Of a stretch of 22,674 bases of DNA, positions 1-16,344 are shown piece after piece. The stretch is from a virus. Below the pieces are notes generated by a model. The model ran no database searches, was not told the DNA's origin, and was given only the letters and a program-made list of their open reading frames with translations. The position numbers and the translations under genes are program-made. The first letter of the stretch is position 1. Each line of letters begins with the position of its first letter. The DNA is taken from positions 19,069 to 41,742 of IMG/VR virus record IMGVR_UViG_3300030116_001792; one strand, given 5' to 3'.

Positions 1-1151
1 TCAACTGATGACATAAGTTCTTGTAGACCTCTACCAGTAACAAAAGAGTTTGGTGATTGTGCGTCATCAGTAACAGGATAACTAGCACCTAATCTTAATT
101 GTCTCTCTAATCTATCTATTTGTTGAAACATCTGATAAGGTAAGTTGTTTGTTGGTTTTACAACTTGGCTACCAGGAGATAGATAGTTTATTGCAAATCT
201 ACCTCTTTTATAATTACCTGACTCTATCTCTCCTACTATGTTTGTTTCTGTAAACACAGCATCTTCCATAGCTATAATTGATAAAACATTTATCTTTGCC
301 ATTGCAGACATAAGGCCTAACACATGATCGTATTGTCCTTGTAGTCTGTCAAAACTAAATCTTTTAGCAATTACAAATCTTGGTCCTGTCTTTAATGGAT
401 TAGGTGTAAAGTCTAATATCTGACTTGTAGATGGTAGATATACATAAGTACCCTCTTCGTCATAATATTCTATTAACTCTTCACCATCAGCAGTGTCATT
501 CTCCCATGACCTTGACAATGCATCTTTATACAAACCTTGTTGCCAACCACCACCATAATTATTTGTACCTTGTTCGTATTCTATGTTTGCATTAGGATAT
601 AATTTTTTAATTAATCCTGACGGTACAATTCTTACTAATGCTAATTCTGTAGGTGTTTGATCAGGTCCATAGTAACCAGGAAAGCAATCGTATGGATCAC
701 GTAGTTCTGCATGTGGATACATATTGCCAAACTGATCTTGTTTGTTTCTTATTATCCATACACAAAAACCATAACCAGGTAGCCATCTAGCTGCTTGTGG
801 CATTTGCATTTCTATTCTGCTTTTTTTATCGTACGAATGTACTATACGTTCTATCTTTTCTGATTTTAATTTTGCACGTTCAGAATCTTTATTGTTATAT
901 GGATCAACTTTTAAGTCAGGCACTCTACCTAGTTTTTGTGCTAGGTGTTCTAATCCAGACTCGATCATATTAGGTATAGGTAAATCTTCGTTGTAATTTT
1001 CAGAGTTAGAACCTAGTAATGCTGATACACCTTGTGAACCACCATTAATAATTTTTCTTATTCTTGTTCTGTAATCCCAATGACCAGTATGTTCGTGTAA
1101 CCCACGTAAATCGTCTACCTTGTGTGCTAGTTGACTAGCGTTTAATGGCAT
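1..1151 (-). CDS. Phage portal protein, 3' end missing
   Basis: Open frame of 383 codons running off the left edge, starting at an ATG whose A is shared with the terminase stop (TAATG). The product begins MPLNASQLAHKVDDLRGLHE and includes stretches such as RDPYDCFPGYYGPDQTPTE, followed by a beta-rich region and a long helical C-terminal part, as in portal proteins. Portals form the dodecameric ring at the capsid vertex through which DNA is packaged, and they dock the terminase. The assignment rests on position directly after the large terminase, on size and on overall character; no single diagnostic motif was seen. Its C-terminus lies outside the window. Translation is probably coupled to the terminase. 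Confidence 0.72.
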   Translation of the reverse strand, partial: MPLNASQLAHKVDDLRGLHEHTGHWDYRTRIRKIINGGSQGVSALLGSNSENYNEDLPIPNMIESGLEHLAQKLGRVPDLKVDPYNNKDSERAKLKSEKIERIVHSYDKKSRIEMQMPQAARWLPGYGFCVWIIRNKQDQFGNMYPHAELRDPYDCFPGYYGPDQTPTELALVRIVPSGLIKKLYPNANIEYEQGTNNYGGGWQQGLYKDALSRSWENDTADGEELIEYYDEEGTYVYLPSTSQILDFTPNPLKTGPRFVIAKRFSFDRLQGQYDHVLGLMSAMAKINVLSIIAMEDAVFTETNIVGEIESGNYKRGRFAINYLSPGSQVVKPTNNLPYQMFQQIDRLERQLRLGASYPVTDDAQSPNSFVTGRGLQELMSSV

Positions 1152-3070
1152 TATCTATCCCACATTCTTTCGTCGTATGTACTTAACTTATAATTGCTAT
1201 AAGATGGATTATAGTCGTTGTCTACTTCTGATAGCATTAATTTAACGGTCTGGCGTACCCTTTTCATAGGAAACCAACTTGCCATAACTAAGTCAGTTTT
1301 TGAATTTACAGACTTAGAATTTGTGCCACTAGCACTACTAAAATAAATTAATTGTTGTCTAAGTACATTTACTTTACGTTGTGTCTGTGGATTACCCCAT
1401 GGTAAATTTATTTTTTGTTGTTCATACATAGGCACCATAGCTGTTACACCAAATACAGGATCCCATTTGTTTTTATATGTCTGATGGCCCTCTATCCTTA
1501 CACCGTTTACACCTGCCCAGTTTTTTATTTCTTTATCTTGTCCTATAGCTTTTTGGAATCCGTTTTCTTCTACAATCCAATGCGATAAAAAATATTGCTC
1601 ATGCCATTCTTGCATAACTTTTAATGCTTTAGATATACCACCACCTAAGTCATTACGTAAATCTACTAACCATAACTGTCCAGTTTTTTGATTGTATGCC
1701 CACAATACTGCTGCTTGGTATCCTGTACTTGCAGGATCTAAACCTGCAATTAATGCAGTATGTGGTGGTACATCACCAAGTATTCTAGACCTGTCTAAAC
1801 AAGAATCTATCATCTCTGCGCCAAACAATTCCATACCTGCAGGTACAGCTTTGTTAAGATACACCATCTCAAATATAGCTCTACCACCTGTTGTTTCTGC
1901 TGCTGCTAATTGTTCCATAAGCCATTTGTGTGATCGTTTACCTTTCCATAACATGTGTTCGTCTTGGTCATTTGACTCTTGGTCTAACGGTATTTCTAAA
2001 TCATGCGCTCTCTCTACTATTGTTTCCCAGGCATCATTGTTTAACAATGCATTGTACAAATCATCAGGATGCTGTCTAGAACCAATAACAACCATACCTG
2101 TATGTTCTTCTTTTCTAGACTGTAATGTTGTTGTCCACCAGTTTTTTGTATTCTCTCTTGCACTTGGTTGCACTGTACTACCATGATCTTCTATGTCGTC
2201 AGATATAATTAAGTCTGCATCTCTTGACAAAATTTTACCGCCCTTACCTACAGCTACCAACGTAGGTGATTTTATACCAGACACAGTTCTTGTAGCTACA
2301 GTAAATTGACTTGTACTCCAGGACTTGCCAGATTTATTCATAGGCCTAAATCCCTCGTATGTTGCATAGTCCTGTATAAGTTGTTCGTTGTTTTCTAGGT
2401 GGTCGAGTACAGAACCCACCGCGTTTTTTGCTATGTCCTCGTTACCGCCTACCCACATTATTCTCATGTTTGGATTTTTACATATCATGTATACACAAAA
2501 GTGTGTAAGCAAATCTGTCTTGCCATGACGTGGCGGAGACAACACCATTAATCTTTTACCATTCTTAATAGTTTCTAATATTGCATCTATCCATCTTTTC
2601 TGGAACTCTGGTGTCTCGTACGGTACGTTCTGCTCTGTCAAAAAATATTTGTCCCTAAACTCTACAAAGTCATCGAGTGCTGCTTGTGCCTCCCCATTTT
2701 TTTGTAAGGACTCGTGATTGACTCGTAGTGCCTCGTCCTTTAGATATGCAGACAGAGATCTTGTAACAGTCGGTAAAGAACAACCTAGTATGTCAGCAAC
2801 TTCTTGTTTAGTCTTTGTACCTTTTAATAAGTCGTCAAAAAAATTTTTTTTATCCATTATGGCGTAGTAGTTGCCTCTACGTTTCTGTACGTTTGTGTCT
2901 ACAATCTTTTCTACCTGGTATGTATCTGTCGCTTTGTTGGCCCTGTATGCTCTTTTCTTAATTCTGTTTGCACATTTGTCAGAACAATACTTTCTACGAC
3001 CTGTCGGTAAAACGTGAGTACAGTCGTTGGCTAGGCAAAACTTGTTTTTTTCTTGTTTTGTTTTAGTCAT
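1151..3070 (-). CDS. terL: Terminase large subunit with N-terminal zinc finger and HTH
   Basis: Packaging motor ATPase/nuclease, 639 aa. The ATPase has Walker A SPPRHGKT (residues 178-185) and Walker B LIISDDIED (287-295). The C-terminal RNase H-like nuclease shows GLDPAS (D445), acidic residues E501/E502 and D593 in KTDLVMAS. The N-terminus carries an extra module: a zinc finger with C12, C17, C29 and C33 (CX4C-X11-CX3C), then a helix-turn-helix around residues 84-110 (KQEVADILGCSLPTVTRSLS) of the kind found in small terminase subunits. No separate small terminase is visible in the window, so DNA recognition may be fused in. The ATG has no Shine-Dalgarno but lies 7 nt after a -10-like box, suggesting a leaderless start. 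Confidence 0.93.
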   Translation of the reverse strand: MTKTKQEKNKFCLANDCTHVLPTGRRKYCSDKCANRIKKRAYRANKATDTYQVEKIVDTNVQKRRGNYYAIMDKKNFFDDLLKGTKTKQEVADILGCSLPTVTRSLSAYLKDEALRVNHESLQKNGEAQAALDDFVEFRDKYFLTEQNVPYETPEFQKRWIDAILETIKNGKRLMVLSPPRHGKTDLLTHFCVYMICKNPNMRIMWVGGNEDIAKNAVGSVLDHLENNEQLIQDYATYEGFRPMNKSGKSWSTSQFTVATRTVSGIKSPTLVAVGKGGKILSRDADLIISDDIEDHGSTVQPSARENTKNWWTTTLQSRKEEHTGMVVIGSRQHPDDLYNALLNNDAWETIVERAHDLEIPLDQESNDQDEHMLWKGKRSHKWLMEQLAAAETTGGRAIFEMVYLNKAVPAGMELFGAEMIDSCLDRSRILGDVPPHTALIAGLDPASTGYQAAVLWAYNQKTGQLWLVDLRNDLGGGISKALKVMQEWHEQYFLSHWIVEENGFQKAIGQDKEIKNWAGVNGVRIEGHQTYKNKWDPVFGVTAMVPMYEQQKINLPWGNPQTQRKVNVLRQQLIYFSSASGTNSKSVNSKTDLVMASWFPMKRVRQTVKLMLSEVDNDYNPSYSNYKLSTYDERMWDR

Positions 3071-3384: not shown

Positions 3385-3408
3385 AGTATACACAATATAT
3401 GGTATACT
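3385..3408 (+). promoter_or_regulatory. Extended -10 promoter within an inverted repeat, driving the tRNA-like RNA
   Basis: TGG-TATACT (3400-3408) lies 7 nt before the GGGGATG acceptor end of the tRNA-like RNA, so the RNA would begin with GGGG at its acceptor stem. AGTATAC (3385-3391) and GTATACT (3402-3408) are a perfect 7-bp inverted repeat overlapping the -10, operator-like. A second perfect repeat, CTATATCT/AGATATAG, lies just upstream (3361-3368 and 3379-3386). Confidence 0.5.
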
Positions 3409-3415
3409 GTCTACT

Positions 3416-3506
3416 GGGGATGATTGGTAACTAAAGCTAACGATCAACTAAAGATTGCCCTTGTACACAGTAGCTTTTTGACTAGGTTCGACTCCTGGCA
3501 TCCCCA
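3416..3506 (+). ncRNA. tRNA-like RNA with CUA in the anticodon position (tmRNA-like ends)
   Basis: A 91-nt element that folds like a class II tRNA. The acceptor is GGGGATG (3416-3422) with CATCCCC (3499-3505), 7 perfect pairs, then discriminator A3506. The T arm is CTAGG-TTCGACT-CCTGG (3482-3498). The anticodon stem is CGATC/GATTG (3441-3445, 3453-3457) with 7-nt loop AACTAAA, placing CTA at positions 34-36 (amber-reading). The variable region is 24 nt, and CCA is not encoded. Unusual points: position 33 is A instead of the near-invariant U, the D-stem is weak (TGG/CTA) and the D-loop lacks GG. The 5' GGGGATGATTGGT and the 3' GGTTCGACTCC...CATCCCCAC resemble tmRNA ends, so a shrunken tmRNA relic is the main alternative. 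It is on the opposite strand to its neighbours and has its own promoter. Confidence 0.6.
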
Positions 3507-3742
3507 CTACATATAGTGTATATATAGCAAAAACCTAGTTACCACCTATACTTTTGGAGATACATATATATTTACGCGACGTCCAGATTTAACTATGTAG
3601 GTCTGTTGTGTAATGTCTAGAAATTGCAGGAATATGCACAGCTTTGATCTAAAGTTTTGTGCGTGTCTACTGCTAACAGGTTAATGCGCGCACGACCGCC
3701 CATAATACCCCTACATTAATTTCCTGGAATAACCCCACTATA
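3507..3742. other. Intergenic stretch, no clear gene
   Basis: Between the tRNA-like RNA and the terminator there is a short CACTA/TAGTG hairpin just after the RNA (3505-3518), without a T-run. A partial copy of the repeated motif, GCGCACGAC, is at 3688-3696 in plus orientation. A 28-codon minus-strand frame (3617-3703) has only a weak ribosome-binding site. Nothing else could be supported. Confidence 0.5.
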
Positions 3743-3780
3743 TAAAAAAAGAAGAGGAGACCGACGGCCTCCCCTCCTCT
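3742..3780 (-). terminator. Rho-independent terminator of the 5300-3802 operon
   Basis: On the minus strand AGAGGAG (3780-3774) pairs with CTCCTCT (3759-3753) around a GC-rich interior, followed by TCTTTTTTTATATA. It lies 21 nt after the stop of the 43-aa gene and separates that operon from the terminase region. Confidence 0.75.
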
Positions 3781-3801: not shown

Positions 3802-3933
3802 TTAACTAGATACTGCTTGCGCTTTCTTGTAATGGTAATAGCAAAGTTCTTGCTTTATTATTTCGAATGGCTCAAAAAAGAATGATGTATCACATCCGCA
3901 GGAGTTTATTTCTCTGCCTCTTTTCCTGGCCAT
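3802..3933 (-). CDS. Small Cys-containing protein (43 aa)
   Basis: Begins at an ATG overlapping the previous gene's stop (TAATG at 3933-3935) and ends 21 nt before a terminator, so it is the last gene of the operon. The protein starts MARKRGREINSCGCDTSFF, with CxC near residue 12 and C..H further on (ELCYYH). This could be a metal site or simply incidental. The basic N-terminus could bind nucleic acid. No family recognised; the operon position and overlap are the evidence that it is expressed. Confidence 0.55.
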   Translation of the reverse strand: MARKRGREINSCGCDTSFFFEPFEIIKQELCYYHYKKAQAVSS

Positions 3934-4337
3934 TATATATACCTATAACGGAATCGACTTTGCCAATCAGCAGGGCCAATCGTAAAACCATCTCCTAGAC
4001 TCCCGAACATTTCATATAATGTCTGGAATCCCATGTCCATATTACCGAATGAACGGTATATAGTTCCGCCTAGTTTATCGTTGAGACTGACTCCAATAAC
4101 TTTTGCTATATTATAAGTTATGTCAAAGAGTTTTCCAGTCTCTAAATCAACATAATGGAACGTGAAATAGTTTCCTCCGCTTTTTGTTGTTGGTTGTCTT
4201 TTAGCAATGTAGATCTCCGGTTTGCTCCCTTTATCTATTGCTAGCTTTTCTTGCGCTAGAAACATTTTAGTTAAATATTCCTTAGCCTCTTTAATATCGT
4301 CTTTTGTGTATTCTTTTACACTAACTATGTTAGGCAT
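3933..4337 (-). CDS. Hypothetical phage protein (134 aa)
   Basis: The start chosen is the ATG at 4337, which has AAGGAGG 6 nt upstream; a longer in-frame opening to 4406 would overlap the preceding gene deeply and has no ribosome site. The protein starts MPNIVSVKEYTKDDIKEAKE, with an amphipathic helical N-terminal third (residues 8-32) and then a beta-rich region (GNYFTFHYVDLETGKLFDIT). No catalytic pattern or membrane segment is seen and the family is not recognised. It overlaps the 44-aa zinc protein by 8 nt and the 43-aa gene by 1 nt. Confidence 0.75.
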   Translation of the reverse strand: MPNIVSVKEYTKDDIKEAKEYLTKMFLAQEKLAIDKGSKPEIYIAKRQPTTKSGGNYFTFHYVDLETGKLFDITYNIAKVIGVSLNDKLGGTIYRSFGNMDMGFQTLYEMFGSLGDGFTIGPADWQSRFRYRYI

Positions 4338-4464
4338 CTTTTTCCTCCTTATATTCTGGACATGTACGACAATAAAAATTATTTTCATCTGTCTGTAATG
4401 TCTCACCTATTGCTAGTTCTCTTTTACACCAGTAACAAAAAAACTTTAGGACAAGTTTTGTCAT
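4330..4464 (-). CDS. Zinc-ribbon microprotein (44 aa)
   Basis: ATG overlaps the upstream stop as ATGA, and the 3' end overlaps the next start. The protein starts MTKLVLKFFCYWCKREL and has a second pair in NFYCRTCPEY, i.e. CxxC ~18 residues apart from CxxC, a classic treble-clef/zinc-ribbon spacing. The residues between and after the pairs are charged. Such micro zinc ribbons usually bind nucleic acid or a protein partner, but the function here is unknown. It is adjacent to another zinc-ribbon gene. Confidence 0.72.
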   Translation of the reverse strand: MTKLVLKFFCYWCKRELAIGETLQTDENNFYCRTCPEYKEEKDA

Positions 4465-14153: not shown

Positions 14154-14336
14154 CTATTTCCTAAACCTTATAGTCAATAGCCACACAACTAATGTAATTA
14201 CTGTAGCTAATCCTGTAACTTGTTGCGCACTTCCCGTTAATGTAAGCGTTGCAATAATTAAACCGACAAGTGTCCATGACAAATTTAATGTTTCTTTTAT
14301 TGCCTCAACAATATAATCAATTATCTTTTTTATCAT
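14154..14336 (-). CDS. Small membrane protein (60 aa), possible holin
   Basis: Overlaps the end of the 663-aa gene by 4 nt (ATGA). N-terminal amphipathic helix (MIKKIIDYIVEAIKETLNLS), then two hydrophobic segments, WTLVGLIIATLTLTG and VTGLATVITLVVWLLTI, and a basic end RFRK. Two-helix topology with a positive C-terminus is typical of small holins, but it could be any membrane protein of the lysis set. Confidence 0.68.
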   Translation of the reverse strand: MIKKIIDYIVEAIKETLNLSWTLVGLIIATLTLTGSAQQVTGLATVITLVVWLLTIRFRK

Positions 14337-16324
14337 ACTCTCCTTGTCAACAGCATAGATGCCAAGCTAGCAATCCTTGTAATGATCACTGGTATAACAA
14401 CTTCTTGTGCTTTTTCACGTTGATCTTGTGTCATATCTTGTCCTATATCTGATATTACCACATCAGACAAATCGACATCTACTAAAGTACCTATTGGATT
14501 AGATATAAATTCTTCTATCTGGACCTCAACAACAACATCAGCAAGTGTATAATCCTCTACGTCTGCATTTTCTACTGCACGTTCTACATAAACTTCAACC
14601 GCATCTGCAATAACTTCATCTTCTTTTATAGCCTCTGCAATAATTTCTACATCTTCTGTTTGTACCTGTAATACTTCTGCTACTACTTCAACTTGTTCTT
14701 CTGTCAAATTATCTATCTCTTCTATGGCCTCTTCTACAACTGCTTGTACTATCTCTTGTACTTCCTCTGTAGCTTGTTCTAGATTTTGCACACCTATATC
14801 ATTAACTTCTTCTAAGACTTCGACTACTTCTTCTGTATCTAATTCTTCCACATACTGATCTATGACTTCTTCTATTTCTTCATCAGATAAATCATCTTCT
14901 ATATCTATCTCTATAACTTCTTCTAACTCTTCAGTCTCTTTGACATCTTCTTCTTGAATCTCTTCCGTTGTTTCGGTGTCATCTCCTGGTATATTTTCGT
15001 CCAACTCATCTTCTTCTATCTCTTCAAACTCTGTGTCCCAATCATCTATATCTATTTCTATTTCTTCTATGTCCTCTATAATTACAATTTCTACTTCTTC
15101 AAAGTCTTGTAAAAATTCTTCGACTTCAATAATCGTCTCAACAAAATTCTCCAACTCCTCTTCATCTTCAAACGTAAATATTTCAACTGTCTCTTTAATT
15201 TCAAGAATCTTAGTTTCTCTTTCAAGTTCTTCTTCAGTAAGTTCAATCTCCATAATGTCAGGTACATCAACATCATTGTAAAACTCTTCTCCGACTTCTC
15301 CCATGTCTTGTTCCTCAATGATCTCGATGTCATAATTTTCTAAATCTCCTCGTTCTATTTGTTCGTCAGTTAATTCTACACCATATATCTCAAAATTCTT
15401 TTTTCTTTCATTGTCTCGTTCTACTGTTCCGTCATCAATCTCATGTTGTTCATACTCTGCCTCTTCACCATTATCAAGTATGACAACAATTGTTTCTGGT
15501 TCAGGTGGTGGAGGAGGTATATAAGGTTCAGGTTCTGGTAAAGGTTCAGGTTCTGGAGGTGGAGGTAATGTTGTAGTTGTAGTTGTAGTTGTTGGTTGTA
15601 TGTATTTAAATGATATGTCATCAAGCAAAGACCAATCATTAATTGTTATTGTAAAACTTTCTATAAATGTTTCTAATGTGTCGTATATATTGTAAACAAC
15701 ATCTTCAAACATGTTTTCTATATCTGTATTATCTTGGCCCTCAATCACATTTACTTGTGTTGTTTCATCAGTGTGTGTATATGTTACTGTGCCATCATTA
15801 TTTAATGCACCGATTCTAAAACCAACTTCATATATATCTATATCTAACTCTTCTTCTTCTACTGTCGTGGTTTCAGGTAGTGTAAATGTGTAATCATTAC
15901 TATCGTTGCCATGTTGATAGTAATGTAAATTCATGTGAAAGTCTGTCATACCACAACAAGACCAATTACCGTTACTATGATTACTGTCTATCTGTATATT
16001 GTTTTCAACCTCATTACCTTGACTATCTAATTCATCTTCAGGTAATTCTATATCTGTTGATTGTTCCCATTCAGGTATTGTCGTAGTAGTTGTAGTGGTC
16101 GTAGTTGTAGTAGTGTTATCTTCTGGAACAGTTGTAGTCGTAGTAGTTTCTTCTGGTCCATCAAATGTTTCTATTTCTTCTACTTCACCAGGAATGGTAG
16201 TAGTAGTAGTTGTAGTAGTTGTAGTTGTAGTAGTTTGTTCTTCGTTAGCAAATACAGGTATAGGTACGAGTAGTACAGTAACTAATAGTATTCTAAAGTA
16301 ATTGCTTATCCTCCTGAACAGCAC
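14333..16324 (-). CDS. Giant secreted Thr-repeat, Pro-rich, acidic protein
   Basis: About 663 aa from the GTG at 16324 (two TTG codons at 16334-16339 are alternatives). Signal peptide: RRISNYFRILLVTVLLVPIP, then VFA|NEE. Then three poly-Thr tracts (about 13, 6+12 and 8 Thr), a folded-looking region with WSCCGMTDFHMNLHYYQHGN, a Pro-Glu tract (PEPEPYIPPPPPEPE) and ~330 residues extremely rich in Glu/Asp/Ile/Val. The C-terminus VVIPVIITRIASLASMLLTR is hydrophobic and could anchor in the membrane. No known domain. Export to the envelope during lysis or superinfection exclusion, or a surface decoration, are possibilities. Codon use is strongly GAA/GAT-driven, so the reverse strand looks Ser-rich. 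Confidence 0.8.
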   Translation of the reverse strand: MLFRRISNYFRILLVTVLLVPIPVFANEEQTTTTTTTTTTTTTIPGEVEEIETFDGPEETTTTTTVPEDNTTTTTTTTTTTTIPEWEQSTDIELPEDELDSQGNEVENNIQIDSNHSNGNWSCCGMTDFHMNLHYYQHGNDSNDYTFTLPETTTVEEEELDIDIYEVGFRIGALNNDGTVTYTHTDETTQVNVIEGQDNTDIENMFEDVVYNIYDTLETFIESFTITINDWSLLDDISFKYIQPTTTTTTTTLPPPPEPEPLPEPEPYIPPPPPEPETIVVILDNGEEAEYEQHEIDDGTVERDNERKKNFEIYGVELTDEQIERGDLENYDIEIIEEQDMGEVGEEFYNDVDVPDIMEIELTEEELERETKILEIKETVEIFTFEDEEELENFVETIIEVEEFLQDFEEVEIVIIEDIEEIEIDIDDWDTEFEEIEEDELDENIPGDDTETTEEIQEEDVKETEELEEVIEIDIEDDLSDEEIEEVIDQYVEELDTEEVVEVLEEVNDIGVQNLEQATEEVQEIVQAVVEEAIEEIDNLTEEQVEVVAEVLQVQTEDVEIIAEAIKEDEVIADAVEVYVERAVENADVEDYTLADVVVEVQIEEFISNPIGTLVDVDLSDVVISDIGQDMTQDQREKAQEVVIPVIITRIASLASMLLTRRV
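15568..16234 (-). repeat. Three ACN-triplet (poly-Thr) tracts
   Basis: In-frame runs of ACT/ACA/ACC codons: 16196-16234 (13 Thr), two runs within ~16074-16155, and ~15570-15594. Degenerate triplets, so slippage would change length without shifting frame. They separate the signal peptide, first acidic spacer, globular part and Pro-rich part of the secreted protein. Confidence 0.8.
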
Positions 16325-16344
16325 CCTTGTCCACAACAATCCAT
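16306..16344 (-). CDS. 12-codon Cys-rich micro-ORF (MDCCGQGCCSGG)
   Basis: ATG at 16344 preceded by AAGGAG with AATAT spacing, the best ribosome site in the region. It encodes 12 aa with two CC pairs, ending 18 nt inside the secreted-protein gene, in another frame. That large gene has only TTG/GTG starts and no good ribosome site of its own, so the micro-ORF probably delivers ribosomes to it by coupling. A metal-binding or sensing peptide is possible. It follows the XhlA-like stop within 10 nt. Confidence 0.5.
   Translation of the reverse strand: MDCCGQGCCSGG

Follow-up and report, generated by a model that had tools for sequence, protein, structure and literature searches.

What kind of RNA is encoded at positions 3416-3506 of a viral DNA, on the strand opposite to the genes on either side of it? 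The DNA analysed here is a stretch of 22,674 nt from IMG/VR record IMGVR_UViG_3300030116_001792, referred to in full as the window. A first-pass annotation had entitled the element a tRNA-like RNA with an amber (CUA) anticodon and its own promoter. The parts that it described (a perfect 7-bp acceptor stem, a T arm with a TTCGACT loop, a hairpin of 5 bp with a 7-nt loop and a TGG-TATACT box) are all present at the positions given below, and its departures from tRNA rules, an A at position 33 and no D stem, were confirmed. The 'long variable region' that it noted also exists as a stretch, but one strand of a P2-like helix, the 3' one, falls within it. The locus comprises the following features.

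1151-3070, minus strand: gene for the large terminase subunit (terL), the divergent neighbour; phrog_38, E=9.9e-70.
3413-3385, minus strand: putative sigma70-like site TAGACA-17-TATACT directed toward terL, overlapping the plus-strand -10 of the RNA.
3400-3408, plus strand: extended -10 element TGG-TATACT, ending 7 nt before G3416; invariant in the clade except for TATAGT in L016 and L017.
3416-3506, plus strand: mini-tmRNA (tRNA-like domain plus a short P2, no mRNA-like domain); RF00023 24.2 bits; held-out model R2 25.9 bits, E=7e-4; kept upstream of terL in 17 loci.
3416-3422, plus strand: acceptor 5' strand GGGGATG, forming seven Watson-Crick pairs with CATCCCC at 3499-3505; G3 pairs with C70 here and with U70 in most relatives.
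3423-3432, plus strand: stemless D-loop-like region of about 10 nt (A8, conserved GG).
3433-3439, plus strand: 5' strand of the P2-like helix, AAAGCTA, pairing perfectly with TAGCTTT at 3471-3477; ATAGCTA/TAGCTAT in L016 and L017.
3441-3457, plus strand: small apical hairpin with a 7-nt loop (3446-3452, AACTAAA); triplet and loop length variable, stem broken in L016 and L017.
3471-3477, plus strand: 3' strand of the P2-like helix, TAGCTTT, the partner of 3433-3439.
3482-3498, plus strand: T arm CTAGG-TTCGACT-CCTGG, 5 bp with a TTCGACT loop; covaries in relatives (CTAGG/CCTAG, CCAGG/CCTGG, TCCGG/CCGGA).
3499-3509, plus strand: acceptor 3' strand CATCCCC (3499-3505), discriminator A (3506), then CTA, with no encoded CCA; ACTA is invariant in the clade.
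3748-3780, minus strand: likely intrinsic terminator of the 3933-4406 gene.
3933-4406, minus strand: the preceding gene.

The RNA is 91 nt long, has A73 and a 4-nt linker between the P2-like helix and the T arm, and presents its parts (7-bp acceptor, stemless D-loop, P2, T arm) in the order of tmRNAs that consist of the tRNA-like domain only (TLD only). An mRNA-like domain with a tag frame and pseudoknots is absent from it, only 31 nt lying inside P2, and its D-loop is without the UUCGAC motif of typical mini-tmRNAs. A search of the window for a perfect 7-bp acceptor together with a 5-bp T stem and a TTCRANY loop, all within 35-100 nt, gives a single site, and the same search gives none in 200 first-order Markov copies; the folding energy is unremarkable and, taken alone, uninformative (z = -1.3). 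A candidate tag peptide inside P2 (GCT AAC GAT CAA, or A-N-D-Q) was rejected, as one-base indels between relatives shift its frame, and as Ala-to-stop tag frames are not in excess in the wider family (34 versus 45 in shuffled sequences). Separately, a short way past the 3' end of the gene (3536-3544) stands TAGTTACC, complementary to GGTAACTA in the D-loop region (3426-3433) and kept in most relatives.

At 17 loci whose TerL is 82-100% identical to that of the window, the RNA is kept upstream of terL together with its -10 box. Among these window-clade relatives, the P2 helix and the T arm change by compensation; the covariation that the first-pass annotation had proposed to look for was found in these two helices, while the supposed anticodon varies in sequence and loop length and its stem is broken in L016 and L017. 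Judged by its conservation and by the compensatory changes in relatives, the element is a selected RNA structure. The RNA pattern, and not TerL, led to nine further contigs whose TerL shows 72-74% identity to that of the window. They carry a different mini-tmRNA with G3.U70, which in the four of them with the distance measured lies 318-320 nt upstream of terL in antisense orientation. In TerL relatives of about 50% identity the mini-tmRNA was not found, except in L095, which had been found from the RNA side, and direct DNA comparison of the window region with named phages gave no match.

The relationship to tmRNA was approached with models of different origin. The Rfam tmRNA model RF00023 aligns end to end with 3416-3509 (model positions 1-374, with the middle deleted) at E=2.7e-6, so that the Rfam comparison advised earlier did return tmRNA, but at 24.2 bits, under the curated gathering score of 47. 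Because RF00023 also matches in archaeal genomes, the relationship was tested by other routes. The covariance model R2, built from six unrelated viral mini-tmRNAs, none of them from the window's clade, recognises not only the window but also its clade members at 32-42 bits, down to E=7e-8 (L016), and did not match the canonical tRNAs in the L130 array. A further model, R1 (MAFFT and RNAalifold on minis of mixed length), was poor, with misaligned 5' ends, and was left out of the results. Outside the window's clade, the mini-tmRNA exceeds the RF00023 gathering score in nine of the ten carrier loci tested (47-69 bits), the score being reached neither by L059 nor by the two window-clade loci tested. 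With the Rfam match, the held-out covariance model and the clearer mini-tmRNAs at the same locus in related phages all speaking for a mini-tmRNA without an mRNA domain, which the first-pass annotation had already considered, the membership of the window RNA in this family, as a divergent mini-tmRNA, is well supported.

This family proved to be large. A pattern scan of IMG/VR for tmRNA-like ends with a short middle, which gives a lower bound on abundance, returned at least about 100 distinct viral mini-tmRNAs of 70-100 nt, one of which ARAGORN called a tRNA; at three pattern matches (L057, L066 and L067) ARAGORN predicts overlapping tmRNAs of about 300-490 nt. Among the matches listed, 92 were placed in an alignment that was fitted to the structure and is therefore biased in favour of covariation: 96% of its pair cells are standard-paired, all eight P2 pairs show double changes (581 such cells versus 179 when shuffled), and the covariation score is 0.590, a value that falls to 0.114 on shuffling and to 0.094 or less when the strands are slid, only 41-58% of cells then being paired. 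Despite that bias, most P2 pairs show all six standard pair types. Two motifs that agree with tmRNA, though the pattern does not require them, also recur: of 91 viral minis, 35 have GG..UYGAY in the D-loop (0.3 in shuffles) and 37 have GGAC ahead of the T stem. CCA is encoded by only 25 of the 91 other viral minis.

The neighbours of the gene differ among carriers. About ten related contigs have it between terL and portal, and six between the head protease and major capsid genes; in others it follows an exonuclease gene, or lies within or close to a tRNA array. No SmpB gene was detected in 12 carrier records, so the SmpB of the host would be used. A search with a single mini as the query returned mostly short matches to tRNA 3' ends; a composite of about 39 minis detected unannotated copies in Streptomyces phages. 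The isolates Lululemon and LuckySocke carry such minis in their tRNA arrays (L241:2996-3072, 56.5 bits, and L242:2991-3068, 77.1 bits, with R2) and are culturable systems in which function could be tested. Matches in genome contigs of Stenotrophomonas and several actinobacteria were set aside, since they resemble the 3' portions of full-length tmRNAs; some other matches are tRNA-Ala. Ten Poribacteria genomes (L172, L174, L183, L185, L189, L193, L196, L205, L211 and L213) contain an apparently chromosomal mini-tmRNA of 86-88 nt that has G3.U70 and a GGAUUCGACGG-like D-loop and, at 64-70 bits, exceeds the tmRNA cut-off; it adjoins a gene for a PLP-dependent decarboxylase-like protein in nine of the ten, and seven of them also have a full-length tmRNA. 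This apparently non-phage, bacterial TLD-only tmRNA merits separate study. Two further minis, in L190 and L207, lie in contigs binned as archaeal (Nitrosotalea and ARS1334), which are possibly misbinned phage or bacterial contigs.

As terL and the 3933-4406 gene are both on the minus strand, the RNA, on the plus strand, is antisense to its neighbours. The claim that it has its own promoter holds in that the motif is conserved in relatives, with GTATACTGT before GGGG retained in four compared sequences of the relatives with about 73% TerL identity, and the conserved -10 element is likely to be used for the mini-tmRNA; the same stretch, however, also reads as the minus-strand sigma70-like site. 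The overlap of the two sites suggests that terL and the RNA are served by promoter elements placed back to back. Elsewhere in the window, a 668-aa ORF (14333-16339, minus strand) with long threonine runs and Glu/Val-rich repeats had no Pfam match.

One difference within the family concerns pair 3-70. G3.U70 is the alanine identity, and G3-C70 is expected to block alanylation. Pair 3-70 is G.U in 91 of 92 aligned viral minis among the matches listed. Close to the window, G3-C70 occurs in the window itself, L001-L004, L006 and L018, and G3.U70 in L007, L008, L010-L017 and L044. Across the whole collection, 8 viral contigs matched a pattern allowing only C70, and the window's own subgroup makes up six of these, whereas the pattern allowing U70 matched at least about 100 distinct sequences; from this rarity, selection appears to maintain alanine identity in the family, and the window's subgroup lacks it. 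Because G3-C70 replaces G3.U70, the RNAs of this subgroup are probably not alanylated, and one step of tmRNA chemistry has probably gone with the pair. In terL, the window stands as far from the L003 group as from phages with G3.U70, or farther, which bears on whether G3-C70 had a single origin. That most family members retain G3.U70 suggests that in these RNAs charging and entry into the ribosome are of importance.

Like bacterial tmRNA (ssrA, RF00023), the minis have a GGGGxUGA acceptor, a stemless D-loop, P2, a T arm and A73, with G3.U70 in most family members, but the window RNA lacks the tag frame, the pseudoknots and G3.U70, and has 91 nt against a model of 374 positions. Complete tmRNAs are also phage-borne in the mycobacteriophage Bxz1 group, Bacillus phage G and, in two pieces, methylophage Melnitz (PMC4131195, PMC9004378); unlike the minis, they could perform trans-translation. 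The closest parallel is the ssrA gene of Mycobacterium phage DS6A, which encodes, as the window does, little more than the tRNA-like domain of tmRNA and was described as 'TLD only' (Lau and Williams, PMC4131195; PMC11915505), although DS6A is one mycobacteriophage set against a family and the likeness is drawn from the published description. A molecule similar to that of DS6A strongly inhibits tmRNA in E. coli, whether chargeable or not, perhaps by titrating SmpB, according to the account of Mao et al. 2009 given in PMC4131195; the passage on inhibition in Nawrocki et al. 2025 repeats this result (PMC11915505). Of the 97,179 sequences in the tmRNA database, the same authors class nine as 'standard, no CDS', with one phage named. 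Mitochondrial and two plastid tmRNAs are without a tag frame as well (PMC11915505), and the mitochondrial form and the Mallomonadaceae plastid form of about 65 bp therefore resemble the minis; they are organellar, however, and the role proposed for the mitochondrial one is rescue, not inhibition.

By analogy with the inhibitory molecule, and with a probability that we put at roughly 55%, the best explanation of the whole is that the phage makes a 91-nt mini-tmRNA that inhibits the trans-translation of its host, probably by titrating SmpB. The decoy idea of the first-pass annotation fits as a mechanism. Transcription would probably start at the extended -10 promoter that the RNA has to itself in the interval separating terL from the preceding gene, and host enzymes would trim the 3' end of the RNA and add CCA. 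The RNA would then bind host SmpB, and its chargeable relatives would engage AlaRS and EF-Tu as well, so as to compete with host tmRNA or to enter stalled ribosomes as a dead end, leaving trans-translation inhibited during infection. Most family members, which keep G3.U70, should be alanylated; the G3-C70 subgroup that includes the window would act mainly by occupying SmpB, as fits an uncharged decoy.

A role in rescue itself, in which a tag-less tmRNA is alanylated and accepts the nascent chain with SmpB, other factors then releasing it and freeing ribosomes for phage translation, as has been proposed for mitochondrial tmRNA, is unlikely. It would account for the near-universal G3.U70 of the wider family (among the matches listed), which a pure SmpB decoy does not need, and tag-less tmRNAs do exist in mitochondria and two plastids (PMC11915505). 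Against it, the published accounts of a similar molecule in E. coli (PMC4131195, PMC11915505) speak of inhibition, and in the window's subgroup the stems are intact even though G3-C70 should prevent alanylation. A tRNA-like decoy aimed at something other than SmpB (tRNA-cutting defence nucleases, RNase P or Z, EF-Tu or AlaRS) seems improbable. The ends and T arm are tRNA-like, G3.U70 with A73 would engage AlaRS, and some carriers place the mini in or near tRNA arrays; but many tRNA-cutting toxins act on the anticodon loop, which these RNAs lack, their apical loop shows no conservation within the family, and such a decoy gives no reason for tmRNA-like D-loop and linker motifs (GGAC, 37/91) to persist.

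Position and descent provide the remaining alternatives. The siting at terL-portal, at head protease-major capsid gene and, in the window clade, beside terL would suit an RNA that takes part in packaging the DNA or in assembling the head, or one that punctuates late transcripts by its structure. We give this little credence, as in other carriers the mini follows an exonuclease gene or is one element of a tRNA array, packaging leaves G3.U70 unexplained, and the window RNA, being antisense to the flanking genes, cannot punctuate their transcript. That the element remains from an integration event at ssrA or at a tRNA gene (an attP site or pseudogene) is very improbable: ssrA is a common integration site, and fragments of it are known in prophages (PMC9004378), but here both acceptor strands are present, the covariation of P2 and the T arm already contradicts it, a phage integrase was found neither in G000, nor in its relatives G019 and G020, nor in three of five other carriers, and the mini has been retained at one locus across about 27% TerL divergence. 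Least credible of all is the amber-suppressor tRNA of the original title. CUA does stand in a 7-nt loop of the window RNA, but the relatives refute this reading within the clade: their loops have 7 or 8 nt and other triplets, and the stem is broken in L016 and L017. The D stem is absent, position 33 is A, and ARAGORN, whose use had been recommended, made no call on the element.

We therefore return to the mini-tmRNA as an inhibitor of trans-translation and to its place in phage biology. The family is large and almost unreported, DS6A being the only published phage precedent found in a search limited to open papers, and it is a class missed by ARAGORN. It offers a natural inhibitor scaffold for studies of trans-translation. 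As a tentative extension, mini-tmRNAs may be a widespread phage counter-measure against ribosome rescue in many unrelated lineages, with the window's lineage representing an unchargeable, pure SmpB decoy. At least about 100 distinct TLD-only forms in phages would make it testable whether phages routinely suppress or redirect the ribosome rescue of their hosts by means of an RNA decoy.
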